The position numbers and the translations under genes were made by a program. This document shows, piece after piece, positions 32,589 through 52,036 of a stretch of 64,000 bases of DNA (its first letter is position 1; each line of letters opens with the position of its first letter). Under the pieces are notes generated by a model. That model was not told where the DNA came from. It did not search any database and saw only the letters and a program-made list of their open reading frames with translations. The stretch comes from Sorghum bicolor (taxonomy: Eukaryota > Streptophyta > Magnoliopsida > Poales > Poaceae), in assembly GCF_000003195.3 (NCBI RefSeq), contig NC_012878.2:8801945-8865944 (forward strand), written 5' to 3'.

Positions 32589-33319
32589 TGTCACACCCAT
32601 ATTTTAAGAACAAAATAGGATGCATAAAAAACTCATATGTGTCCCAGGAATAGTCGCACATATAAGTAGACAAATCTCAAATGTACTATCGCAGTGTTTA
32701 TTACATAGCGGAACATAATAAATCACATAGTCTTACACAAAAATGATAATAATATTAAACAACGCTCTCGACGGAAGCTCCACACAGGGACACTGTTGAC
32801 TGGTTGACTTCAAACCTAGTACTCATAACGGTAGTCCTCATTCCAATCATCATCATTAGCGTAACCTGAGGTGTTGGGAAATTGCAAGAGTGAGCACATG
32901 TCGTACTCAACAAGTATAACCAGGGGTTCATGAGGCTCAAATAGCTGACACTGGTTTGACTGCATTTAACTTTTAATAGTTGATAGCATGTTTAATCATT
33001 GGATAGCAAATGTCAAGGTAGCATAAATAATCCATTAATCACATGATCCAGTGTAAGCATAATTAATTCATAGCATAAACGATAATCAAATGAACATAAC
33101 AACTTAACAAGCTCATCGTCGTCGCAGCAAGAACCCCCAAGGCTGCTCATAACCGTGAGCACGGCTAGTATACCAGTTTTACACTCTGCAGAGGTTGTAC
33201 ATCTTTACCCACGAGTCATGATTTACCCTTTCGCCCGAGGTAGCTAATCTCTTAACCCCCTTCCTAGGGAGGTCGGCAGGGATCACTATGAAGCCTTTCA
33301 AAAGTTTTGTCTAACATGT
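32589..33319 (-). repeat. Left inverted LTR arm, outer part
   Basis: Inverse copy of 51306-52036 at roughly 97-98 percent identity (about 18 differences counted by eye). It is interrupted after CATGT by the Tat element. Two short chance ORFs here mirror ORFs in the right arm. Confidence 0.9.
33315..33319. repeat. Target duplication CATGT (left) of the Tat element
   Basis: CATGT precedes the left LTR and is repeated at 45714-45718 after the right LTR, proving the insertion point within the outer element's left arm. Confidence 0.95.
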
Positions 33320-34031
33320 TGTTGATGCAAAACTGATCTGCAAACACAAAGGGCTAATACCCGATTCAAACGTTAAGGCGTGCCAGCCGATTTGACCTTA
33401 CAATCGACAAAGGTGGTAACTCGACCACTTTGGTCCCGACAACAGCGATACGCCCGGATATCACGGCCAAGAGGTGATCACGCGGAACTTGAGAACACGC
33501 CAAGCTTAGGTCGACGAATTGCTAAGAACTCGTAATAAAAAGAAAATATGACGAAGTCGTCGAAAAAGTAGATACTGGAATATGAGTAAAAACTTGTGTT
33601 TGATTGATTGATCGATTGTTTCATTACATTGCCCTAGGGTCTATTTTTATACCCTGTCTGAAGAGCTACAACCAGACACGACTAGGACTCGAATTCCAAA
33701 CTAAACGGAACCCGTACACAAAACGAATTCTAACAAGTAAGGAAAACATAAAACTACCCCCTTGTAACCGAGTGGGGCACCGCCACATATCAATCGACAA
33801 TCTCCACGCTTTCCTTCAGAGTCATCGGCAGGTCTCCTGTTGTGGCCATCGGCAAACACTAATACTAATCATCGGCACGAATACGTCACCACCTCTGGAC
33901 TTAGTCTCATTCATCTGCTTCCTCATCGGCAACCTCCCTGTAGACTAGTTACCGTTGCTTCATCTGCGGATCTATTCTTTATTAACTCCAGGTACGTATC
34001 AAAAGATACGTGTCCAAAAACGGTGTCAACA
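33320..34031 (-). repeat. 3' LTR of the Tat element
   Basis: 712 bp, TGTTGATGCA to GTGTCAACA on the plus strand. It is aligned to the right copy except for one 16-bp unit and one base, and carries a TATA-like box (33641-33651, minus) and five ATCGGC/GCCGAT words. Confidence 0.95.
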
Positions 34032-34043
34032 CATGCCCCCCAA
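34032..34043 (-). other. Polypurine tract of the Tat element
   Basis: The minus strand reads TTGGGGGGCATG directly before the 3' LTR, in the position of the plus-strand primer. Confidence 0.75.
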
Positions 34044-34431
34044 TTTCGGAGTATAAAACCATTAATGCTTCGAAATTCTCTGCAGTAATGATGCCTTTCC
34101 GCAATTAATTCTCCCAATTTGGTAATCGGCCGTTAAATCCGAACAACCTTGGCCTGATTTTTTTGCACATTCCTCGAATTCCTTAACCTCCCGAACCGAA
34201 TCTCTCCACTTTATACGCCCATCGGCAATATTACCGTTAGAGAGAACTGCCGATGGACCGACCAGGAGATCTTGTACAGTGAAATATCTCCAAAATCATG
34301 ACCGCTTGCTGTCAAATCACCTGCGCAATCCCTTGATTATCGTACAAACAGTTACCATATCCACCTAAATACCCTCAGATTTCACGGATGCGGCAAAGAG
34401 ATAAGTCAGATTTGCCCCTGTACATTTTGTC

Positions 34432-34440
34432 CTATAAATA
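34432..34440 (+). promoter_or_regulatory. TATA box of the antisense PMD gene
   Basis: CTATAAATA lies 151 bp upstream of the plus-strand ATG at 34591, outside the LTR. This gives the opposite-strand gene a promoter of its own. Three ATCGGC/GCCGAT words lie within 310 bp upstream (34124-34255). Confidence 0.65.
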
Positions 34441-34590
34441 CTTCCTTCTCTGGTACTCCTTCTCCATCTTGTCATTCTACAGCCCAAAATCCACTTTCAC
34501 GGCGGAGGCACCACCCGAGGATTCCAAGAACTTCCACGAAGGCCTTCTTCACCAATCCCCCAAGTCTTCGATCCTCTTCCTTGCGAGAAA

Positions 34591-37500
34591 ATGGCCATCA
34601 ACTTCATCGTGCCTGAGGTCAGTTCACTACCCTTTCTCCTGCACTTTTTACTGTACTCCTGTTCATCCGCAATTCGTCTTACTGAATACTCCTTTTTCTT
34701 TTTGTTCTTCTTTTTATCCTAAAAAACTTCTAGGATTTGGCCGATAAGATCGTTATTCCTATCGATCAACCTCACCTCCAGTGTCTTGGCCCGCTAGGAA
34801 ACCCAGATCGCACCGATCTGATAAACGCAGAGACAAACAGAGTTCCCTTTAGAGCCGAAAACTTCTCCCTAGATCTGTGGAAAGATGCCTTCCGTTCCTG
34901 GCCCAGTCCTACCAAGGGATGGAAGGATTGGTTCTTGAGAGTCAGCCACTCAAATGAGGTTCAATGGGGCGAGCGAAAATTAGACCAGTGCAATAGGTTG
35001 TCCCTTGCCGATATGGAGAGGAATGAGTCACTGCTAATTGCTGCCTCGTACTTTTGGTCAGACACGCTCAACGCTTTTGTGTTTGGCCATGGCCCTGCTT
35101 CTCCCACACTTACCGATGTACTCATGCTCACCGGCTTAGATATATCCACTGCCGATAATAGTCATCTATTTGACACCAAACCTAGTGCTAAGGTGGAAAC
35201 TCGCGCTATCGGTGGTTGGTCTGGGTACATTCAGAAGTACCGAAGAACAGGACCCGTTAATGCAAAGGAACAGACCACTTTCCTGAATATGTGGCTGGAT
35301 AAGTTTGTATTCTGTGGCCGATCGGCAGTACCAACTTCTGTTTACTTATCGGCAGTAGAAAGATTAGCCGATGGCGGCCGATTTCCTCTTGGCCGATACC
35401 TGCTCGGCTCTGTTTATCACCTCCTCCACCAAGTAGCCAGGAAACTTCTGCTCGGCCAACCCGTCGGCAACTTAGGGGGTCCTTGGTGGTTTATCAACAT
35501 GTGGGTTAATCTCCACATGCACAAGCGCCTTGAATTCAACCTCTTTGCACAGCGCTTCCCCAGGGACATAGCCGAGGATTATGAATTGGATGAAGAAGAA
35601 TCGGCAACTCGTTCTCCCTTGAACTTTGGCGAAGCTGCCATAGTCTTACCTGGCACTGGTGGTAATGAAGACCAGGTAAGCTGATTCTTTCAGACTCTGT
35701 ATGAAGGTCTGACCAGAGAACAGCGGGCGTGGATGCCTTATGAAGATCCAGATACCAAATTTCCCCTGACTTTCCACCCCTTCAATGATGCTCTCAACAA
35801 CGATCGTGACGTGATGATGGCAATTATCACCCCAAGGGCCATCCCAGTGAACTTCTTTGGTAGTGGGAAAGCTTCCAATCTGACCTATGAGTTTTATAAC
35901 CCATCGGCACTAGCTCGTCAACTAGCTTTCGGCCAACTGCCGATTGCACTTTGCTACGCCGATGTGATAAAGCCGAGGGAGATTATCACCAGCAATCTTG
36001 AATGGATCAGGATAGCTCAACTTCCGCCAAACGCCGATACAGATGTCGATCTATCAGCTTGGATCCCAGCTCTTTTCATTACTTAGGCATACAAACAGTG
36101 GTGGGAAGAGTGGAAAGAGCACCTGTTCTGTAGATCGGCACTCACATATCGTGGCATGATTGATCCCAAATACAAGGTCCCCGATAATACTGTAAGTATT
36201 TTAACCGATGTTTCAATCCCTTCATTCCCATTTTCTATCGGTAACTCACTTTCTTTGTTTTATTCAGGTCGATGATACGCCACCATCAGTCAGCAGAAGT
36301 GGCAAGCCGATCGAACTCCTTCCATCGGGCCCGATCTCTTTGATCGGCAACAACGCTCCAACCTTGGCCACTTTAATGCACCGGGGTGTGCGTCTTAAGA
36401 AAATCACCACCAAGAGGACGAAAACATCCCCGTCGGTAGCTGCCACTGCTTTGGCACAAGCCTTCAAGGTAAATTCTCGAATTCTTCAACTTATACCGAT
36501 TCTATTCTTATACTTACACAATTTTTCAGGACACATCGGCTAGCATGGGAACTTCATCTGTAACTTTATTATTTTAATTAGAACTTCATCAATACCCTGT
36601 TACACTTGTACTCACAAAACTTTCATTGTTGTATCAGCACACTGGCAAATCGGCAAAGACCAGAAGTACGACTGCTGATGCCCCCCAGTCCAGCCAACCA
36701 AAGAGAAAAGGTTCCAAGAGTACCAGATCACAAGCGAAACGGCAGAGAACAGCAACGCCTCCTCCTCCTCCAAGGTCACCGATTCTGGTGGAATCATCTC
36801 CCTCTTCTCCAGAAGCTCAGACACAACAAGTACCGTCTCCTCCTCAGCCGCAAGAAGAACCCCAAACAGAAGAACTCCAGCCAGAAGAAACTCAGCCAGA
36901 AGAAATATCGGCTGATGTACACGGGCAGACCGCCGATCCAGCAAGTTTGATCATAGCATCGGTAGTCTCCTCAATTCAGACAAGTACTGCACCCCCTCAA
37001 GGTAACATACTCTCTACTTATTGTTGATGAACCTACTTTTCTACTTTATAATTACCTCTGTTAATTTTCAGCTGACATTGTCCCATCGGCAACTCCAGCC
37101 GATCAACCCATAGTACCATCAGCCTCAACTAGCCAGAGGCGAGAAATTGCTCTAAAGCAAGTAAGTCATTTGATTATCATTCTGTATTTTACTAATATTT
37201 TGTCATCAAATAACCCATCTCCTGTCCTCTTTCAGGAACAAGATTCTCCTGATAGTTTGTTCTCCTTCGCTATTGAAATTTCTGATGACGAAGGTGAAGA
37301 AGCAAGTTCTTCCCAAGCGATTGGGATTTCATCGGCAGAGATCAGAGCAAAGCTGGAGGATCTGTCAGCTCTGCTTCATCAAGATACAGCGCAATTGGTC
37401 GACGACTCTGATCCAGCCAAGGCTCTGTTTAAGGCTCTCAGAGGTCAAATCTCTGCTGATGCCGAGGAGATTCTTTTCTAGGCTGCACACTTAGAGAGTC

Positions 37501-37931
37501 GTCAGCTGCAGTACCAAAAGGCCGCTCAACGCCTTGCCGATAGAGCCACTTATGCCCAACTCTCAGAGGAGGTGATGAAAGTGAAACATCTTGCCGATGA
37601 AAAGTATAAGAGCATCGGCATTCTAAAATCCTCCGGAGACATGCTGAAACAGAAGATCTCTAACTTATCGGCAAAGAGGGAAGCTCTGCTAGCGGAACTC
37701 AAGCAAGTAGAAGAAGCTCTGTCCCAAGCTCAACAAGAAGAAAGCCAGCTGCCTGAAGCAATCAAGACTCTCGAACAGGAGCGAAACATCCAAGCCCGCA
37801 AGGCATTGCAAATGAAGAAGAAGCTGAGGCCAGTGGAGGGCTCTGCCGATGAAGATATGAAGGAAATAGAAGAAGCTGATCAGATCTGTCTACGCGCCAT
37901 ATCGGCAATCCAGGCTCTACTAAGCATGTGA
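34591..37931 (+). pseudogene. Antisense gene of the Tat element: plant mobile domain protein with coiled-coil tail
   Basis: Eight exons join in phase: 34591-34617, 34734-35675, 35694-36191, 36268-36468, 36530-36559, 36638-37001, 37072-37160 and 37236-37931 (2847 nt, 948 codons). Exons 2-3 encode a plant mobile domain (PMD): landmarks include a tryptophan-rich start (FSLDLWKDAFRSWP), LTDVLMLTGLDI and GGPWWFINMWVNLHM. Exons 4-7 are basic, then Pro/Glu-rich. Exon 8 is acidic, then a long coiled coil (about 37490-37925). PMD genes occur as passengers in gypsy and Mutator-like elements; the host paralogues MAIN/MAIL1 act in the nucleus on gene expression and transposon silencing. Two in-frame TAG codons (36084-36086 and 37479-37481) and an 18-nt GT...AG remnant at 35676-35693 break this copy. 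The start is chosen because MAINFIVPE splices in phase. DNA binding is not shown by the sequence. Confidence 0.8.
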
Positions 37932-37990
37932 ACTCTTCATCGGTAGCATGTCTTGTTCTTTTCTTTTAAACTCCTGATTATTTTGGTCTA

Positions 37991-38077
37991 GCCGATAGGA
38001 CTGTTATCGACATCCTTTTAAAACATTGAGTCCAGCCCCAGATACACTTTAATCCAGCCGATAGGAATGTTATCGGC
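37991..38077. other. Two GCCGATA-(7 nt)-TATCGGC hairpins between convergent genes
   Basis: At 38057-38077 a perfect 7-bp inverted repeat (GCCGATA / TATCGGC) has a 7-nt loop. A near copy lies at 37991-38011 (TATCGAC in the right arm). They sit between the 3' end of the antisense gene (37931) and the stop of integrase on the other strand (38089), where two transcripts converge. They may be termination or processing elements, or paired protein sites. This is inferred. Confidence 0.6.
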
Positions 38078-38088
38078 ACTTAAACTTC

Positions 38089-39966
38089 TCATGCATCAAT
38101 CCACATGCTAGGATAATATTTCTTTAAGTATTTGCCATTCAACGCCCTGGGAAATTCAACTCCTTCGAGAGTTTCTAAAATATAGGCATTACCAGGAGCA
38201 GATCGATTTATCCGATAGGGACCCTCCCAATTGGGAGACCACTTCCCAAATTTTGAACTTTTAGTCCCGATCAGTAAGATTAATTTCCATACTAAGTCTC
38301 CGTTGGCAAATTCCTTAGTTTTTACCTTTTTATCGTACCATCTGGCAACTCTCTTTTTATTTTCTTCTATATTCATCAAAACCCTCAACCGATGCCCTGC
38401 TAAATCATCCAACTCGTCTTTCATCAAGGTAACATAGTCATCGGCAGTCAGCTGATCTTGAAAAGATAGTCGCCTTGATCCGGTTTTAATCTCCCATGGC
38501 AACACAGCATCGTGTCCATACACCAACTGATAAGGTGAAACTTTGATCGACCCATGACAAGCCATCTGATATGACCATAAAGCTTCATTTAACAACGTAT
38601 GCCACTTCTTAGGATTTTCTTCAATCTTCCGCTTGATAAGCTTAATAATTCCTTTGTTAGATGCTTCAGCCTGCCCATTGGCTTGAGCATAATAAGGAGA
38701 AGAATTCAACACTTTAATTCCCATACCGATTGCAAATTCATCAAACTCTCCCGATGTGAACATGGTACCCTGATCGGTAGTAATCGTTTGAGGAATACCA
38801 AATCGGTAAATAATATGCTCTTTCATGAAATCAATCATATTGGCCGATGTGACTTTCTTCAGAGGAATAGCTTCAACCCACTTGGTGAAATAATCGGTGG
38901 CAACCAAGATAAACTTATGCCCTTTGCTCGATGGCGGGTAAATCTAGCCGATTAGATCAATAGCCCATCCCCGGAACGGCCAAGGTTTAATAATGGGATT
39001 CATGGCCGATGCGGGTGCTCTTTGAACATTACCAAATTTCTGACATCCTTGACATCCCTTGAAATATTTAAAACAATCTTCAAGTATGGTTGGCCAATAA
39101 TACCCGTTCCTTCTAATCATCCACTTCATCTTAAAGGCCGACTGATGCGCTCCACACACCCCTTCAGGGATTTCTCCCATCAAACTTTTAGCTTCATCAC
39201 CACTCGAGCACTTGAGAAGAACTCCATCGATTGTTCGGTAATATAATTCATCTTCGAGGAGCACATACTTGGTAGCTTGAAACCGAACACGTCTCTCAAC
39301 CCTCTTAGATGGATCCTTTAAATAATCAATGATTTCTTTTCTCCAATCATCGGCACCAATTGTCGATATTATATTTAATATGGGCTGATATCCCGAGGCA
39401 TGCTGAGCCAACCGATTAGCCTCCTCATTATGCAATCGAGGAACATGCTCTAATCGGAAATCTTTGAATTCTCTTAACAGTTGCATACTCTTTTCGTAAT
39501 AAGTTATTAAAACTTCACTTCGGCATTCATAACTTCCACCTAATTGATTTATAACCAGCATAGAATCCTCGAAGATTTCAACAGCATCAGCATGAAGTTC
39601 TTTTAACAACTCCAACCCCTTGATTAAAGCTTGATACTCAGCTTGATTATTTGTTGATGTGGCAACAATCGGCAAAGAGAACTCATACTTCCTTCCCTGA
39701 GGGGAAATTAACACTATGCCGATTCCTGCACCCCGGTCACACGTGGATCCATCAAAGAAAAGCGACCAAGGCACAATTTCCAAAGTTTCCACTGCACTGC
39801 GATGTTGAGTCACAAAATCGGCCATAATCTGTCCTTTAACTGCTTTAACCGATTCGTACCGCAGATCGAATTCCGACAGTGCCAAAATCCACTTACCGAT
39901 CTGCCACTCATAATCGGCGTAGATAGCATATATCGGACCACATCGCCCTTGCATATAACAGTGCAT
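38089..39966 (-). pseudogene. Tat pol, second part: archaeal-type RNase H and integrase
   Basis: A single minus-strand frame interrupted by TAG at 38944-38946. Order: a second RNase H (SLFFDGSTCDRGAG start, NNQAEYQALIKGL core with the catalytic D and E), a linker, a zinc-binding segment (CGAHQSAFKMKW then GCQGCQKFG; the second histidine of the family's HHCC is replaced by F), then the integrase core with its DDE residues in AIDLIG, TTDQGT and ANGQAEASNK, and a C-terminal GPYRI-type module. Integrase joins cDNA ends to chromosomal DNA; the extra RNase H is the Tat clade marker. The stop lies just after the first catalytic D where the family has glutamine. Confidence 0.88.
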
Positions 39967-41310
39967 TCGGCCGATAACAAATAGTGCCTCAACTTAATGC
40001 ATGAGAAATACAGGCATAAACATAATTTTTCAATAGCCGAATATCTGGTCTCAGCATCAATCAATCTTCTGCTTAAATAGTAAATCACACGCTCCTTCCC
40101 TTCAAATTCTTGAATTAAAGCCGAACCGATGACCATCCCATCGGTAGACAAATATAATCTGAAAGGCTTTCCTTGCTGAGGTGGAATTAAAACTAGAGGA
40201 TTTGTTAGATAATTCTTCATCTCATCCAGAGCCAACTGTTGCTCTTTTCCCCATATAAACTCTTGATCGGCCTTTAATTTAAGTAAAGGACTAAAAGCAC
40301 AAATTTTACCAGACAAATTAGAAATAAACCGCCTGATAAAATTTATTTTGCCGATCCGAGATTGGAGCTCAGTTTTGTTGGTAGGAGCAACTATCTTGTT
40401 AATAGCATCGATGGATCTTCGGCTAATTTCAATTCCCCTTTGATGCACCATGAAACCAAGAAATTGCCCTGCCGATACGCCGAATGCACACTTGTTAGAG
40501 TTCATCTTTAAACCATGTTTTCTTGTACATTCCAATACTTTTCGCAGATCGGCAAGATGCTTTGTGAAATCTCCGGACTTAACCACCACATCATCAATAT
40601 AAATCTCCACCAGCTTGCCAATGAACTCATGAAAGATAAAATTCATATCCCTCTGATAGGTAGCACCAGCATTTTTCAAGCCAAGGGTCATGACTATCCA
40701 TTCAAACAACCCAACATGACCAGGACATCTAAATGCAGTCTTTGGAATATCTTCCTCAGCCATGAATATTTGATTATATCCTGGATTGCCATCCATGAAG
40801 CTAATAATCTGATGCCCAGCCGCAGCATCAACTAGTAAATCGGCAACCGGCAACGGGTAACCATCCATCGGCGTAGCTTTGTTAAGATTCCTGAAATCAA
40901 TGCAAACTCGAAGCTTCCCATTTTTCTTGTAAACTGGAACAACATTGGAAATCCACTCAGCATACCGACACTGCCGAATAAACTTAGCTTCAATAAGTTT
41001 AGTTATTTCGGCCTTAATATCAGGAAGAATATTAGGATTACATCGACGAGCTGGCTGTTGATGTGGCCGAAATCCAGACTTGATGGGCAACCAATGTTCA
41101 ACAATAGATCGGTCTAAACCAGGCATCTCGGTATAATCCCAAGCAAAGCAATCTTTATATTCCTTTAATAAATCAGTTAACTGCTGTTTACACTCAGAAT
41201 TCAACTTAGCACTAATAAAAGTAGGTCTAGGCTTATCACCATTATCTATATCTACCTCTACTAAATCATCAGCCGATGTAAACCCCCGGCCTAATTTCCA
41301 TCATCGGCGA
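39810..41310 (-). pseudogene. Tat pol, first part: reverse transcriptase and RNase H
   Basis: Reverse transcriptase motifs in order: KNGKLRVCIDFRNLNKATP, a degenerate SFMDGNPGYNQI (family D-A-x-x-G-Y-x-Q), FRCPGHVGLFEW, GLKNAGATYQR and the YIDDVVVKS catalytic block. A standard RNase H follows (LYLSTDG, YYLSRRL, ETRYSAIEK). The frame is offset by one from gag-protease (shift near 41285-41320). Near 39900 a one-base deletion inside an ATCGGT word shifts it out of frame with the second RNase H. The D in SFMDGNPGY keeps the first catalytic aspartate. Function: copies element RNA into cDNA in cytoplasmic particles. Confidence 0.9.
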
Positions 41311-41319
41311 ACCTATCCA

Positions 41320-44300
41320 TTAAAACTCCTCATCAGAACCGACTGCTTGGATCGATGGAATTTCATAATCGGCAACTTTGAGGAAATCCTTCTCCCAAGT
41401 TTCTCCCGAGATACACCTAGTCCTTTCATAGGTATCGGCTTCTGCCGATGCGATGACATAAGAAGAATCTCCTGGGACAATTTCAATCTTATCGCCTACC
41501 CACTGGACTAAGCATTGGTGCATTGTCGATGGGATACAACAATTGGCATGGATCCAATCTCTCCCTAGCAGCAAATTATAAGCACCTTTCCCACTGATCA
41601 CGAAGAAAGTTGTCGGCAAGGTTTTGCTGCCGATGGTCAACTCGACGCATATTGCTCCCTTAACTGGAGACACATTTCCTTCAAAGTCTTTCAGCATCAT
41701 ATCGGTCTTGGTTAAATCTTGATCTCCTTTCCCAAGCTTCTGATAAACTGCATATGGCATAATATTGATAGCAGCCCCACCATCAATAAGTATCTTGGTC
41801 ATCGGCTGCCCATCAACCCTTCCTTTGATGAATAGAGCCTTAAGATGCTGCCTTTCAGTGTCGGCAGGCTTTTCGAAGATGGCCGTCATCGGATCCAGAG
41901 CCAACTGAGCTATCTGGTCGGAAAAATCTAGCTCCTCATCATCACTGGATGGCGCAAGGAACTCCATCGGCAACATAAATACCATGTTAACATCTGTCGA
42001 TGGCCCTTTTCCCTTATGATCCAGTTGCTGCCGTTCTCCAGACTGGCCAGAATTTCTGCCTTTGTTTAGCTCTTCTCGTCTTTCGCGCTGCAGCCGCCTT
42101 TTCTATGTCCTAGTCAACCCCTCTGGACACCATGGAGGAAGCTGTGGCTGCCTTGCCAATGGGCGACGACTTTCCCTTGGCTCCATCCGACAAGTATTAG
42201 CGTCCCTACAAAATATGAACTCATCGGGAACTCGTGCATTGGCCATCTCTTCAAGCTCTTCCTGGTTTCTGGGAAAATATTCAACATGATCACCAAGCCT
42301 ATCGTGTACACTGAGTCTGCCCCCAAGGCGATCATGAACTGAGGTTCTTCCCCTAATCGGCCCATTAAAACGTCGATCATCATCTTGGTACTGCCGATTA
42401 GGTCTATCATACCGATCATAACCATTGCATTCAGGGCAATCTCTAACAGTAGGCAATTTAATGTTCTGCTCCCAACAATGGATAAAGAACGGGCAGTTCC
42501 AATGATCCTGGTGCCAATTCCACTCCTGTCGGCGTCTTTCTTCTTCCCGGCGATAGTCCTCCTGCTGGCGCCGATACCGATCTTCACGCTGCTGCCAAGT
42601 CTCCCGATGCCTTCTATGAGTTATCACAATACCAGATCGAAGAGGCCTTCCTGAGCTGTTTCCTTCCTGGATCAAACCCTTTCCTTTAGCATCGGCAGCA
42701 GTAATCTGATGCTGAGGATCCACCAATGCACTTCTCTCAGCTGCTTCTGACGTCAAAACCTTGGTCTTTCCCTTAGCATCCAACATATTTGTTGGGAAAG
42801 GATGTTGATCGATCTTCATCGGTTTCTGAGCTTTGGAATTATCAAACTTGATTCTCCCAGATTCTATAGCCGATTGCAGCTGTTGCCTAAAAACCTTGCA
42901 CTCATTGGTGCTGTGAGATGTTGCATTGTGCCACTTGCAGTATTTCATCTTCTTTAATTCTTCAGCCGATGGAATCACGTGATTAGGTGACAATTTGATT
43001 TGCCCTTCCTGAATTAGAAAATCGAATATCCTATCGGCCTTGGTTATGTCAAATGCAAACTTTTTTGGCTCTTTATGCCCAAAAGGGCAAGACATCGGCT
43101 TTTTGTTCTTCACCCATTCTGCTAAGCCGATGACTGGCTCCTCATCAGAATCTGAGCTTGCTGCTTCATCCACAAATGATACCTTTTTGTTCCATGCTCT
43201 CTTGGGTTCAAAAGGCTTAATATCTTGGTCAGAAATCCTTTGCATCAAGTGACTCAGACTTTCGAACTCTTGAGAAGCGTACTTGTCTCTGATATGTGGC
43301 AACAGCCCCTGAATAGCCAAATCGGCAAGCTGCCGATCATCTAGAACTAGGCTATAACATTTATTCTTGACTTCCCGCAACCTCTGCACAAAGCTTTCGA
43401 CCGATTCATCATTGCGCTGCTTCAATCTGACTAAATCGGTAATTTTCTTCTCATGAACTCCAGAGAAGAAGTACTTGTGGAACTGCTTTTCTAGATCGGC
43501 CCAAGTGATCACTGAGTTGGGAGGTAACGAAATAAACCAGGTAAAAGCCGATCCAGACAAAGATGATGAAAACAGACGAACCCTCAATTCATCTCTGTTA
43601 GCAGCTTCCCCACATTGGATGATGAACCTGTTGACATTTTCCATAGTCGATGTATCATCCTGTCCAGAAAACTCAGTGAAATCTGGTACCTTGTACCGAT
43701 TTGGAAGTGGAATTAAATCGTATGCAGGAGGATACGACGTCCGATAAGAGTAAGTGTTGACTTTGGGTTTTATCCCAAATTGGTCTCTCATTACTTCAGC
43801 TATCTTATCGGCCCAATAAGCATCGACATCCTGTCGATGAGGCGGTTGTGGATCTGGCGCCTGCTGATATGTTTCCACGTGTCGTTGAGGTGCACGATCT
43901 GCATGGAACATTGGGTTAACCATCTGACCACCAATCTGTTGACCTAAATTCATCGGCTGGTTGGCCAACCCTTGATTCTGAAACCCGGGTTGAATTTGGC
44001 CTTGTTGAAACCCTGGATCCTGATGATTCTGCTGAGGCATCTGTGGAAAGACTAACTGCCCTGTCCATCCACTGTTAGCATTCATCGGCACAAACCCTGC
44101 CGATGGCTGGAAATTAGGCATCATCATCGAATTGACATACCCTGGTTGTGTCATAAACCTCTGCTGCGTCGGCATTGAGTCTGCCGATGCGAAAGGCATC
44201 TGGAACGTTGGAGCTTGAGAATTCCCAGTGTAAGGTCTTGCAGTAGTAGTTGTAGTATACTGGGGACTCTGATTCATCGGCGGATTTGGAGGTGCCGATA

Positions 44301-44940
44301 CCATAGGAGCCTTGCCTGTCAAATCAGCCACTTGAGATGTTCCAGGAATCTTCAACATCATCTCAGGGGGCATACCGTAGCCCCACCAATTAGGAGGAAC
44401 AGATCCCGACATTGCCGATGCCAATAGATCTGAGGCAAGCTTGATTTGCTCATCTGATGTTGATGGATTGGTCGTCATCGGCATAGATTGCACATTAGTG
44501 AGTCCTAATATGCTTGGAGGAACAGTAGTTTCTGTACCCGCAGCAGTCGTAGTAGCCGATGGAGCTGTGACCACTCGTGATCCTGGCTGATGATAGGCAG
44601 GGCCCACATAATTTGGTGGCAATTGTCCTTTCTTGAAAGTTCTAGCCACAACATTGAAAACCATGTTAGACAGCACACCGGCTTGATTAATCAAGGCACG
44701 GTTGATAGCATTGTCAACCATGTCTTGAAGTTTACTAGGATTGGCTTCAAAAGTAATCTACCGAGGTGCCGACAATGCTTCCTTCTGGATCACCTCACCG
44801 CTCCTGTTGATGCTGAAGGATTTCAAACATTGTTGCTTGTAATCCTCCATAGCTTTTGCAATAGCTTGCTTCTGCTCATCTCTGAGATTGGCTTCCGTCA
44901 CGGGGATGACGTTTTCCAAGTCGAACTCGGTATTCACCAT
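41320..44940 (-). pseudogene. Tat gag and aspartic protease
   Basis: One frame from ATG at 44940 (MVNTEFDLENVIPVTEAN) to 41320, interrupted by TAG at 44758-44760 and 42103-42105; TAA at 41320-41322 may be a third lesion. Gag has a long Gln/Pro/Met-rich N-terminal half and a retrotransposon-gag capsid segment (about 43800-43250, with FTWFISLPPNSVITWADLEK). A basic region rich in Arg/Gln follows, containing a short Cys-rich patch (VRDCPECNG) instead of a classical CCHC knuckle. The protease follows in the same frame (41985-41400) with active-site ILIDGGAAINIMP and LLLGRDWI. TAG stands where relatives read glutamine, so these are decay, though readthrough at 42103 cannot be excluded. Confidence 0.85.
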
Positions 44941-44961
44941 GATGATCTTGATCTTGAATCT

Positions 44962-44979
44962 GTCCCACCGGGCGTGCCA
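44962..44979 (-). other. Primer binding site of the Tat element
   Basis: The minus strand reads TGGCACGCCCGGTGGGAC seven bases inside the 5' LTR. It starts with the TGG that pairs with a tRNA CCA end. The tRNA species was not assigned. Confidence 0.6.
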
Positions 44980-44986
44980 AAAGATG

Positions 44987-45713
44987 TGTTGATGCAAAAC
45001 TGATCAGCAAACACAAAGGGCTAATACCCGATTCAAATGTTAAGGCGTGCCAGCCGATTTGACCTTACAATCGACAAAGGTGGTAACTCGACCACTTTGG
45101 TCCCGGCAACAGCGATACGCCCGGATGTCACGGCCAAGAGGTGATCACGCGGAACTTGAGAACACGCCGAGCTTAAGTCGATGAATTCCTAAGAACTCGT
45201 AATAAAAAGAAAATATGATGAAATCGTCAAAAAAGTAGATACTAGAATATGAGTAAAATCTTGTGTTTGATTGATTGATCGATTGTTTCATTACATTGCC
45301 CTAGGGTCTATTTTTATACCCTGTCTGAAGAGCTACAACCAGACACGACTAGGACTCGAATTCCAAACTAAACGGAACCCGTACACAAACGAATTCTAAC
45401 AAGTAAGGAAAACATAAAACTACCCCCTTGTAACCGACCGGGGCACCACCACATATCAATCGGCAATCTCCACGCTTTCCTTCAGAGTCATCGGCAGGTC
45501 TCCTGTTGTGGCCATCGACAAACACTAATACTGATCATCGGCACGAACACGTCACCACCTCTGGACTTAGTCTCATTCATCTGCTTCCTCATCGGCAACC
45601 ACCTTTATCGGCAACCTCCCTGTAGACTAGTTACCGTTGCTTCATCTGCCGATCTATTCTTTATTAACTCCAGGTACGTATCAAAAGATACGTGTCCAAA
45701 AATGGTGTCAACA
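44987..45713 (-). repeat. 5' LTR of the Tat element
   Basis: 727 bp, same ends as the left copy, with one extra 16-bp ATCGGCAACCACCTTT-like unit. Seven ATCGGC/GCCGAT words. Confidence 0.95.
45308..45318 (-). promoter_or_regulatory. TATA box of the Tat 5' LTR
   Basis: The minus strand reads TATAAAAATAG in the middle of the LTR. This is the likely promoter of the genomic transcript, conserved in both LTR copies. Confidence 0.7.
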
Positions 45714-46674
45714 CATGTTAGGGCCGCAAGGTTTCCTTTGCACGCAGATATAGATACCCCCCTTTCAAATGGCACAATGACGCGCAGCCTATACACATAA
45801 GGACAAGGGCTCGCACTATACCCAAAACGGTTCAGCCCCTCTAGCACCCTTTCGGGTAACCGCTAACAAGCTAGAAAAGGTCTTCATACTGAGCTAAAGC
45901 CAGAGCCATTATAGCCCTCATGGTTGCACTGTTGTTCCGGTGATCACTTACAAACAAGATCTCATATAGTTATTTGTCATCATTTAACGTTCATTGCTCA
46001 GCTATTAATCATCTTACAAGATCATGGATTATATCAAGCACTAGCACATCTACACCAAATGCATATCAAGTAGGTAACAAAGAAACCAGGTACAATCATC
46101 TATGATTTTGCTAAGGTCGACAAGGTGATAGCATGCATATGATATATATGTGTAGTTATAAGTGAATAGGTAACAAGAATGATCCCAAGTTATACTTGCC
46201 TTGATCAAAGCTCTCCTGAGCCTGCTGGTCTTCAAAAGCTTGGTCTTGATCACCAACGTACGGCTCACCGTCTATTCCCAAACATCAATCAACAACACGC
46301 AATCCAATGGAGACAATCATACACAAAGCAAATGAGATATAATTAGAACATTACACCAAACAGTGGTAAAATAAAGATAAAAGTTTATCAAAATATTCTA
46401 CGCAGCGCTACGATCACACAAACGTAAAGTTCACGAGAATCGGAATTAAAACAGAGAAGTTATGCATTTTCCAAGATTTCCTATAGAGAAATAATTAATT
46501 AAAAGCTAATGCAGAATTAAAAAGTTTCAAAACAGGGAATAAATACTTCTAACATGTAGAGCTCATAAATACGATTCCAACGAAATTTGAATGGACAAAA
46601 ACGGAGTAAAAATGAATATTTTATGAGCAAAGCAAAATCAATGGCATTTCTGTAAATAGTGAAAGCGTAAATTG
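45714..46674 (-). repeat. Left inverted LTR arm, inner part, with CATGT duplication
   Basis: Starts with the duplicated CATGT and continues the inverse copy of the right LTR (51305 down to 50351). It stops exactly at the primer binding site: the shared sequence ends GCGTAAATTG and diverges at 46675. Excluding the insert and duplication, the left arm is 1687 bp against 1686 bp on the right. Confidence 0.92.
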
Positions 46675-49308: not shown

Positions 49309-52036
49309 TGTAACACCCAAAATTTGATTTTTATTTAATAGGAATTAATTTGATTTAATTGAGTATTTTTGAGAGCATTTAAATTTAGCACTTAAGTAAT
49401 TTTTGGTGGAAAATAAAATTTATTATAAGTTTTAGAAACATGTCTTGCATTCATGCTGGAACACATTTTATTCTATGCTTGTTTTTGGTGAGAATTTGTT
49501 TTTGCATTTAAAATTCTCTTTGGAAAAAGGCTCTGGAAAAATAAAATGGAAAAGAAAACAGAAAAAAGGGAAGCCAGCGCTGCCGCAGCAGGCGGCCCAG
49601 CCAGCCCCCCCTCGGCCTGTTTCCTTTCCCCCCCCGCCTCGGCCCAGGAGTCGGCCCAACCGCGCTGACCCCCCTCCTCCCTTTTCCTCTCGCTGGCCGA
49701 CAGCCGGGCCCCACCCCTCTCTCTCTGACGCTGGGGCCCCACACGTCAGCGGGCGCCTTCTCTTCCTCCTTGCGCCGTGATCGAGCAGAACACGTTTCCA
49801 CCCGAATCAATCTTGGGATTCACGATTTCCTTGCCATTTTCGTGCAAACTGACCCCTATAAATACCCTAGGTCAACCCCGCGGCCTCTTCTTTGCTGTTA
49901 GGTCGCCAACACCGAGTCCCAGTGCCTTGCTTCACGCGTTTTGGATCTCGCCGCGAACCAAGCAAGTCCCGCACGTCACGAGCCCTCCCCGCTAGCTCTC
50001 GGACAGAGAAAAGTCGCTAGGTGAGATCGCGGTGCTCCTCTCTTTCTTCCCATGCCCTTGGCTCGGTTTTTGGCGCACGGATTTGCGAGTTGGCATAACA
50101 CCGGCGAGGTACACGGCGACGCCCATGGCGGCCACCGCCGGAGAGGAAGAAGCCGACCGGCCCGCCGCCTGCGCCCCCTGCGCGATCTCAACCGTTCGAT
50201 CGAGATCCGATGCACCAGATCAGAGGATACCCCTTCAGGGGTTATTTTGCTAAAGAGACCCCCAGGATCTGAGGAATCAACCCGCCGTCCTTTGCGCCTT
50301 CTCTGGTTTACGTTTTCATTTTCTAAAAACGTATTTTCGTCGGTTTGAATCAATTTACGCTTTCACTATTTATAGAAATGCCATTGATTTTGTTTTGCTC
50401 ATAAAATATTTATTTTAACTCCATTTTTGTCCATTCAAATTTCGTTGGAATCATATTTACGAGCTCTACATGTTAGAAGTATTTATTCCCTGTTTTGAAA
50501 CTTTTTAATTCTGCAGTAGCTTTTAATTATTTATTTCTCTATAGGAAATCTTGAAAAATGCATAACTTCTCCGTTTTAATTCCGATTCTCGTGAACTTTA
50601 CGTTTGTGTGATCGTAGCGCTGCGTAGAATATTTTGATAAACTTTTATCTTTATTTTACCACTGTTTGGTGTAATGTTCTAATTATATCTCGTTTGCTTT
50701 GTGTATGATTGTCTCCATTGGATTGCGTGTTGTTGATTGATGTTTGGGCATAGACGGTGAGCCGTACGTTGGTGATCAAGACCAAGCTTTTGAAGACCAG
50801 CAGGCTCAGGAGAGCTTTGATCAAGGCAAGTATAACTTGGGATCATCCTTGTTACCTATTCACTTATAACTACACATATATATCATATGCATGCTATCAC
50901 CTTGTCGACCTTAGCAAAATCATAGATGATTGTACCTGGATTCCTTGTTATCTACTTGATATGCATTTGGTGTAGATGTGCTAGTGCTTGATATAATCCA
51001 TGATCTTGTAAGATGATTAATAGCTGAGCAATGAACGTTAAATGATGACAAATAACTATATGAGATCTTGTCTGTAAGTGATCACCGGGACAACAGTGCA
51101 ACCATGAGGGCTATAATGGCTCTGGCTTTAGCTCAGTATGAAGACCTTTTCTAGCTTGTTAGCGGTTACCCGAAAGGGCGCTAGAGGGGCTAAACCGTTT
51201 TGCGTATAGTGCGAGCCCCTGTCCTTATGTGTATAAGCTGCGCGTCATTGTGCCATTTGGAAGGGGGGTATCTATATCTGCGCGCAAAGGAAACCTTACG
51301 GCCCTAACATGTTAGACGAACTTTTGAAAGGCTTCATAGTGATCTCTGCCGACCTCCCTAGGAAGGGGGTTAAGAGATTAGCTATCTCAGGCAAAAGGGT
51401 AAATCATGACTCGTGGGTAAAGATGTACAACCTCTGCAGAGTGTAAAACTGGTATACTAGCCGTGCTCACGGTTATGAGCGGCCTTGGGGGTTCTTGCTG
51501 CGACGACGATGAGCTTGTTAAGTTGTTATGTTCATTTGATTATCGTTTATGCTATGAATTAATTATGCTTACACTGGATCATGTGATTAATGGATTATTT
51601 ATGCTACCTTGACATTTGTTATCCAATGATTAAACATGCTATCAACTATTAAAAGCTAAATGCAGTCAAACCAGTGTCAGCTATTTGAGCCTCATGAACC
51701 CCTGGTTATACTTGTTGAGTACGACATGTGCTCACTCTTGCAATTTCCCAACACCTCAGGTTACGCTAATGATGATGATTGGAATGAGGACTACCGTTAT
51801 GAGTACTAGGTTTGGAGTCAACCAGTCAACAGTGTCCTTATGTGGAGCTTCCGTCGAGAGCGTTGTTTAATATTATTATCATTTTTGTGTAAGACTATGT
51901 GATTTATTATCTTCCGCTATGTAATAAACACTGCGATGGTACATTTGAGATTTGTCTACTTATGTGTGTGACTATTTCTGGGGTACATATGAGTTTTTTA
52001 TGCATCCTATTTTATTCTTAAAATATGGGTGTGACA
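49309..52036 (+). repeat. 3' LTR of the outer element (2728 bp)
   Basis: TGTAACACCC to GGGTGTGACA. The U3 is AT-rich, then a GC-rich block follows (about 49560-50260), then an AT-rich R-U5. From 50351 on it is matched by the inverted left arm. The ORFs in the GC-rich block on both strands have proline/arginine-rich shadow composition and no domains. Confidence 0.9.
49856..49864 (+). promoter_or_regulatory. TATA box of the 3' LTR
   Basis: CTATAAATA in GC-rich U3 sequence. Transcription would start near 49890, making the R-U5 part about 2.1 kb. Confidence 0.65.

Follow-up and report, generated by a model that had tools for sequence, protein, structure and literature searches.

A hexamer sprinkled along a Tat-type retrotransposon of Sorghum bicolor, probably read as a name tag

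One short word, GCCGAT (or its complement ATCGGC), is written 95 times in the full-length Tat-type LTR retrotransposon that occupies positions 33320-45713 of the 64,000-nucleotide stretch of Sorghum bicolor DNA analysed here, hereafter the window. That selection for this word acts at the DNA level is well supported, since a codon-preserving expectation of 13 coding copies compares with 67 found and since the word is kept in relatives of the element. Something, moreover, probably reads the word as a name tag.

The ends of the element are exact: both LTRs start TGTTGA and end TCAACA, and CATGT lies on each side. On the minus strand the Pfam domain order is PF00078, PF17919/PF17917, PF13456, PF17921 and PF00665, with gag and protease ahead, and an antisense gene lies between pol and the 3' LTR on the strand opposite to gag-pol. 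The features are as follows.

33315..33319, no strand: left target-site repeat, CATGT
33320..45713, minus strand (sense strand): Tat-type Ty3/gypsy LTR retrotransposon, full-length, 95 GCCGAT/ATCGGC copies
33320..34031, minus strand: 3' LTR (sense orientation), 5 words, four within 33824-33930
34032..34590, plus strand: stretch preceding the antisense gene, 3 words; by eye, a polypurine tract forms its left edge
34591..37931, plus strand: antisense multi-exon gene, exon limits by eye, 30 words in 34734-37931
36193..36268, plus strand: intron (by eye), two ACCGAT/ATCGGT variants and no exact word
37932..38088, no strand: gap from the antisense gene to the end of pol; its 157 bp hold 3 words, a higher density than in any other region
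38089..38943, minus strand: integrase core PF00665, 2 words, the lowest density among coding pieces
38944..39993, minus strand: RNase H-like PF13456, which we take to be the additional RNase H (aRH) of Tat, and integrase zinc domain PF17921 (Pfam)
39810..41300, minus strand: reverse transcriptase (RT)/RNase H (Pfam)
41320..42102, minus strand: aspartic protease, 6 words
42103..44757, minus strand: gag (PF03732), with 23 words, of which the fast-evolving linker (aa 56-320) has 10
44758..44986, minus strand: leader from LTR to gag frame, no words
44987..45713, minus strand: 5' LTR, 7 words, six within 45459-45653
45714..45718, no strand: right target-site repeat, CATGT

Pfam places a PMD domain (PF10536, E 1.8e-15) in the antisense gene, within 34734-35684; by eye, the product continues with a basic, NLS-like segment and a coiled-coil-like C-terminal end. 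This gene is broken by in-frame stops in the window copy, and the pol frame is interrupted too. Assigned from its domain order, the layout fits the Tat lineage as given in PMC6317226, where the position of the aRH matches the order found here. Extra ORFs bearing a PMD are already known from the Ogre subclade, for which RT placement is a further criterion; the same source reports PMD in 57% of Ogre elements. A scan of four pieces of the antisense gene, with 36205-37027 outside it, gave no match to TRP28 (PF04195), the Retand marker, at E ≤ 0.01. The element may belong to the sorghum family Retrosor6, for which about 180 Mb has been estimated (PMC7718754).

The abundance of the word was assessed against 200 dinucleotide shuffles of the element, which yielded a mean of 4.97 copies (sd 2.3) and a maximum of 12. 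No hexamer in the element ranks above GCCGAT (z 41), which occurs about once per 130 bp; the next-ranked ones overlap it. The original prediction, made from the letters alone, had given about 95 copies in 12.4 kb with about 6 expected and had suggested such a shuffled hexamer count; for the window copy the observation is confirmed, with exactly 95 copies and 5.0 expected. Its figure of only about eight copies in the other 51 kb was a little low: the remaining 51.6 kb of the window contain 10, which, with 11.7 expected, is chance level. When the window was taken in 6-kb steps, words with fewer than three letters being excluded, z was 15-29 over the element and 10.1 for the best word elsewhere. 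Simple AT repeats elsewhere in the window, if retained, reach values of up to z 32.

ACCGAT is enriched in the element too (27 copies against 3.6 expected), and RCCGAT is found there 122 times. T precedes the word in 53 of 95 cases, and in 13 of 18 non-coding copies, while G follows it in 41 of 95; more than about two bases from the word the flanks look random. Throughout the genome TGCCGATG is found 129,594 times (64,990 forward and 64,604 reverse), as against 8,734 (4,400 + 4,334) for the control in which it is reversed but not complemented. Pairs of words in the same orientation and at most 5 bases apart number 1,666 genome-wide, compared with 239 for the control.

Words are spread along nearly all parts of the element: 5 and 7 in the LTRs, 3 in 34032-34590, 30 in the antisense gene (34734-37931), 3 in 37932-38088, 18 in pol (38089-41319) and 29 in gag-pro. 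Density falls from 19 words per kb in the gap after the antisense gene, through 13.4 in the antisense C-terminal piece, 10.0-10.5 in the PMD pieces and 8.7 in gag, to 5.4 in RT, 2.3 in integrase and zero in the 229-bp leader. Non-coding DNA holds 18 copies in 2,779 bp, and the remaining 77 lie outside the listed non-coding stretches. Both orientations are used about equally (44 GCCGAT and 51 ATCGGC on the plus strand, p 0.54). The prediction that LTRs, antisense promoter, UTRs and genes on both strands would all carry the word stands for the LTRs, for the sequence ahead of the antisense gene and for the genes, and fails for the leader (44758-44986), from which the exact word is absent. Likewise, several introns had been said to carry ACCGAT/ATCGGT; the five introns (395 bp, boundaries by eye) lack the exact word and contain three such variants, confined to two of the five.

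Spacing between words is as random (CV 0.93, compared with 0.98), so the body of the element was not filled by tandem duplication. Small clusters are seen in the LTRs only, where words gather within some 110-195 bp; a tandem-array origin of the whole element is ruled out by the random spacing. A 16-bp word-bearing unit occurs twice in the 5' LTR (44987-45713) and once in the other, and four differences between the two LTRs make or abolish a word.

The first explanation to be weighed is that codon usage or dipeptide content accounts for the count, and some words do indeed lie on conserved Ala-Asp or Ser-Ala pairs. Every codon pair and triplet in nine stop-free coding pieces was therefore checked for synonymous spelling of the word, the expectation being based on the element's own codon usage. 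At 67 of the 123 sites where the word is synonymously possible it is actually written, compared with 13.1 expected, and GCCGAT tops the 2,026 word classes in this comparison, the runners-up overlapping it. Codon choice is visibly bent towards the word: Ala-Asp is spelled GCC GAT in 23 of 32 cases, Ser is TCG in 24 of 35 cases before Ala but in 20 of 157 when another residue follows, and Pro is CCG in 13 of 20 cases before Ile or Met but in 12 of 153 otherwise. Gag contains 23 words against a maximum of 9 in 1,000 synonymous shuffles, and the protease, RT and both PMD pieces also have counts above every shuffle. As predicted, words occupy more than one codon frame (several were found) and codon use alone does not suffice; similar counts under a codon-preserving control, named beforehand as the outcome that would speak against the idea, did not appear (13 against 67). 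With 18 further copies in 2.8 kb of non-coding DNA, codon use and dipeptide content are refuted as an explanation and retain next to no probability.

The excess is nevertheless uneven. The shuffle maximum is equalled in RH-INT and in the antisense C-terminal piece 37482-37928, and integrase (2 words) and 37065-37478 (3 words) fall below it, so that four of nine coding pieces are not beyond shuffles. These four pieces, and the leader and introns without the exact word, count against a recognition-word explanation.

Conservation of the word was examined among copies in the same genome (709 Mb, 846 contigs). Of 20,713 first-look candidates in a search with the RT protein, 97 gave scored matches, and a second query gave 72, partly the same copies. 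The best 30 of each ranked list make up the 60 loci compared here, which include the window copy and are not a random sample; two of them overlap (L033/L052), and RT stretches are identical in L030/L031, in L047/L049/L050 and in L055/L056. All 60 pol-region loci contain the word, with 23-39 copies in 4.3-4.8 kb (5.0-8.1 per kb), the DNA identity of the other loci to the window copy being 0.80-0.885. The mean fraction of other copies in which a site is intact is 0.76 for words (27 sites) as against 0.37 for other CpG hexamers (391 sites), with a p-value (2e-7) that is optimistic, as are those for third bases and private differences below, because the copies share history. For comparison, hexamers without CpG give 0.40 (3,855 sites) and other NCCGAN 0.50 (30 sites). 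Using three other copies as reference, the values are 0.71-0.82 for words against 0.38-0.44.

The variants behave differently from one another. ACCGAT is intact in a fraction of 0.78 (13 sites) and GTCGAT in 0.01 (6 sites); the former therefore looks to be part of the conserved signal and the latter mere decay. At several sites one group of copies has the word and another has GCCGGT, GCCGAC or GCCAAT, which indicates that sites come and go. For the analyses of variability and decay, a word site was defined as one with the word in at least 15 loci. Fourfold-degenerate third bases vary less within words than elsewhere (0.05 at 14 sites against 0.18 at 130 sites, p 0.003); when only CpG sites are taken, this contrast loses significance (p 0.12). 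Words are more numerous in copies with fewer private differences (rho -0.53), but products of C-to-T decay show no increase in copies with more of them (rho -0.22, p 0.10); this and the CpG-only result count against the recognition-word explanation. That some mutational or repair bias makes GCCGAT with no reader involved is difficult to reconcile with the data: words are conserved between copies and GTCGAT is not, words are fewer in copies with more private differences, the flanks look random beyond about two bases, and elsewhere in the window the word is no commoner than chance. As a full explanation it is rejected on the conservation and private-difference results, and we consider it very improbable.

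Farther relatives extend the pattern. Eight loci (L001-L008) were chosen by the double word, and hence are biased towards the word; of these, four matched the element and the rest failed to. In a copy at 73% DNA identity, words are kept at 11 of 22 sites compared with 52 of 307 for other CpG hexamers, and in a copy at 81% identity at 12 of 19 compared with 69 of 242; ACCGAT is kept at 2 of 7 and 1 of 3 sites, respectively. The LTR of L001 (77% identity) shows no significant difference (words 4/7, against 60/149). A further case is an old, diverged Tat copy, L069, reached via another Tat protein, whose RT is 48% identical to that of the window element. The 2,079 bases analysed from it have GCCGAT six times against 0.4 expected, again as top hexamer, and ACCGAT four times. 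Four of its exact words can be mapped on RT: two are at family word sites and two are new, with no word within 12 bp in any of the 60 loci. One shared site is GTCGAT in the window copy and the word in 53 of the 60 loci. Old shared sites accompanied by new ones are the outcome expected of long-standing selection for the word, as seen in this one copy. Relatives without the word, which had been named as evidence against the idea, were not encountered: all 60 loci, the 73% and 81% copies and L069 have it. Viral, prokaryote and plasmid collections yielded no DNA relatives of use, and a PDB sequence search with P0130 found no relative at E ≤ 1.

At the protein level the picture is mixed. Within the gag linker, a metagenome protein at 68% identity (P0243) keeps 18 of 20 word-coded residues as against 30 of 86 like residues (p 7e-6); masking the word residues ahead of alignment changes this to 13 of 20 and 31 of 85 (p 0.019, or 0.085 against all outside residues). 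No difference is seen in other relatives, at 90% identity (18/20 and 75/87) or in P0245 at 46% (8/18 and 25/80), and word-coded residues of the RT and PMD domains have no extra conservation. Dipeptides compatible with the word were gained in close relatives 29 times in RT (20.4 expected), 19 in PMD (17.1) and 6 in gag (4.7), the corresponding values for reversed pairs being 11 (16.8), 12 (17.8) and 10 (5.3); the distant gag result, 135 against 80.9, is confounded by repeats such as PIQQ. Where TCG codes for Ser in words, the column changes in close relatives to Leu in 12 cases, to Ala in 6, to Pro in 3 and to Trp in 2 but not once to Phe, as expected of TCG. An excess of Asp-to-Asn changes at words comes mostly from one PMD column.

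That the word is conserved as DNA, in both orientations, by means of synonymous codons and in non-coding stretches as well, points to a protein bound along the element in its double-stranded DNA form. We tentatively favour reading T(G/A)CCGATG, with core RCCGAT, as a putative double-stranded DNA recognition word selected in the replicating element, the antisense PMD protein being its most likely reader, a proposal drawn from sequence. A sequence-specific protein would bind the element as double-stranded DNA via RCCGAT; lineages richer in sites would replicate better, and the word would be gained wherever protein or RNA function permits. Since inserted copies decay, selection would have to act between replicating lineages. 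The candidate reader, with its PMD, basic segment and coiled coil, might coat integrated copies and, by analogy with VANC, might oppose silencing and activate the LTR promoter, at which words are clustered. A VANC-like antisense PMD reader of this kind is a plausible candidate. The fuller proposition is more doubtful, namely that the whole Tat genome, coding parts included, is sprinkled with an RCCGAT tag kept over deep divergence via synonymous codons, the antisense PMD protein reading it to mark self and block silencing. The predicted structure model of the PMD is of low confidence (mean pLDDT 34). As to related proteins, GENE23 of Grande is described as nuclear (PMC7264820) and the antisense TRP28 as predicted to bind DNA (PMC11963269). 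A 'DOWN' promoter motif is reported as common to genes needing the Arabidopsis PMD proteins MAIN/MAIL1 (PMC7156037), although PMC9899485 leaves open whether PMD proteins bind DNA directly.

The chief rival to the antisense PMD reader, though a rather unlikely one in our estimation, is a conserved host DNA-binding protein, either a chromatin factor or an activator of the DRE/CRT-class AP2/ERF type, with whose RCCGAT sites Tat elements would be loaded. A word common to diverged Tat copies suits such a conserved reader about as well as it does the PMD protein, and RCCGAT resembles the DRE/CRT core RCCGAC; PMC8199153 prints GCCGAT, paired with GTCGGC, as a CRT element to which AP2 proteins of wheat bind. 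However, a promoter activator needs no sites all through coding DNA, and the window outside the element is at chance (10 words, 11.7 expected). Canonical DRE sites are rejected, RCCGAC being found only 12 times in the element and 20 times outside it, against 122 RCCGAT in the element. A further alternative, which we regard as improbable, would have a particle protein such as Gag or integrase recognise the word on cDNA, whether in packaging, in nuclear import or in telling self from host before integration. Equal strand use and marking over nearly the whole length would suit double-stranded cDNA, but the RNA form of this idea is unlikely, one RNA strand having about half of the sites in a given orientation. 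An RNA-level signal is accordingly disfavoured by the strand symmetry (44:51).

Among known systems, the DNA uptake sequences of Neisseria and Haemophilus are likewise short words dispersed genome-wide on both strands, accommodated in coding DNA via codon choice and serving as a self tag; they differ in belonging to a bacterial genome, in being read on DNA uptake and in having a lower density than the Tat word. Closest in logic is the VANDAL/VANC system of Arabidopsis, also a plant mobile element in which a short motif has accumulated and an accessory gene is present. VANC motifs are described as non-coding tandem repeats that differ between related families (PMC5735166, PMC10398659). The Tat word, in contrast, is dispersed and mostly coding (77 of 95 outside the listed non-coding stretches), belongs to an LTR retrotransposon with only a candidate reader, and is not family-specific, being the top hexamer of L069 as well (one copy, 2,079 bases). 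The likeness to VANDAL elements drawn in the original prediction consequently holds for the strong enrichment of a motif in the element and breaks down over the dispersed, largely coding character of the word and its sharing by diverged Tat copies. The presence of the word in Tat copies with 48% RT identity is evidence against a rapid co-evolution, in the manner of VANC, with the protein of a single family.

Sireviruses (Ty1/copia) resemble the present element as plant LTR retrotransposons with many copies of a short motif in LTRs and elsewhere. Their motifs, of up to 32 units, are described as clustered in the LTRs and linker, a few also lying where the ENV gene begins (PMC2829016), and, unlike the Tat word, do not fill gag-pol. 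The extra or antisense genes of other Tat elements (Grande, RIRE2, Retand) share the location between pol and the 3' LTR, and a nuclear or DNA-binding role has been proposed for them (PMC7264820, PMC11963269); the term PMD is absent from the main text of these two reviews, and a dispersed word does not figure in the accessible text of the descriptions of these genes. No prior description of a word dispersed over both coding and non-coding DNA of an LTR retrotransposon was found in the open-access literature.

Codon choice throughout a mobile element can be set by a signal at the level of DNA, a point that bears on work on dN/dS and codon bias in transposons. If a protein does read the word, then an abundant family of grass retrotransposons would have its own address label, one that can be counted and placed in each copy. 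The role of the Tat antisense genes would then become testable, and so would the manner in which LTR retrotransposons escape silencing in large grass genomes.

Within the Tat element, neighbouring copies of the word GCCGAT/ATCGGC in places lie close together, in inverted or direct orientation, at the following window positions:

35317-35326, close word pair
35367-35397, close word pair
41434-41449, close word pair
43321-43337, close word pair

Among the 25 neighbouring pairs separated by no more than 40 bp, 11 have the order ATCGGC...GCCGAT (p 0.04, uncorrected). Words are densely clustered at 1380-1620 of the genomic locus L001, in the LTR of a relative with 77% identity, where the spacings are 7, 16 and 6 bp, and a genome-wide search with the word pattern yielded, among the first matches listed, runs spaced by 24-25 bp. 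From the L001 cluster and these runs, word clusters in LTRs seem to expand fast.

The antisense PMD gene (34591-37931, plus strand) is broken by in-frame stops in the window copy. Open versions are present among its relatives, and P0122, P0123 and P0131, for example, read through at the corresponding positions.

The Tat element itself splits a repeat of approximately 1.7 kb, a second, inverted copy of which lies close by and is 97% complementary to the first:

32589-33306 plus 45713-46674, repeat hosting the Tat element
50351-52036, second copy, inverted

Between the two copies lies an ORF which, judged by eye, resembles a retroviral-type protease.

The genomic loci L007 and L008 (approximately 3 kb each, 95% identical) represent a Ty3-like element other than the Tat element, the reverse transcriptase-like match in L007 being 33-41% identical to Tat RTs. 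Here a different hexamer, TGGTCG/CGACCA, is enriched and carried on both strands, with 15 copies in L007 and 11 in L008 against an expected 2.1. This may be a second element having its own word.
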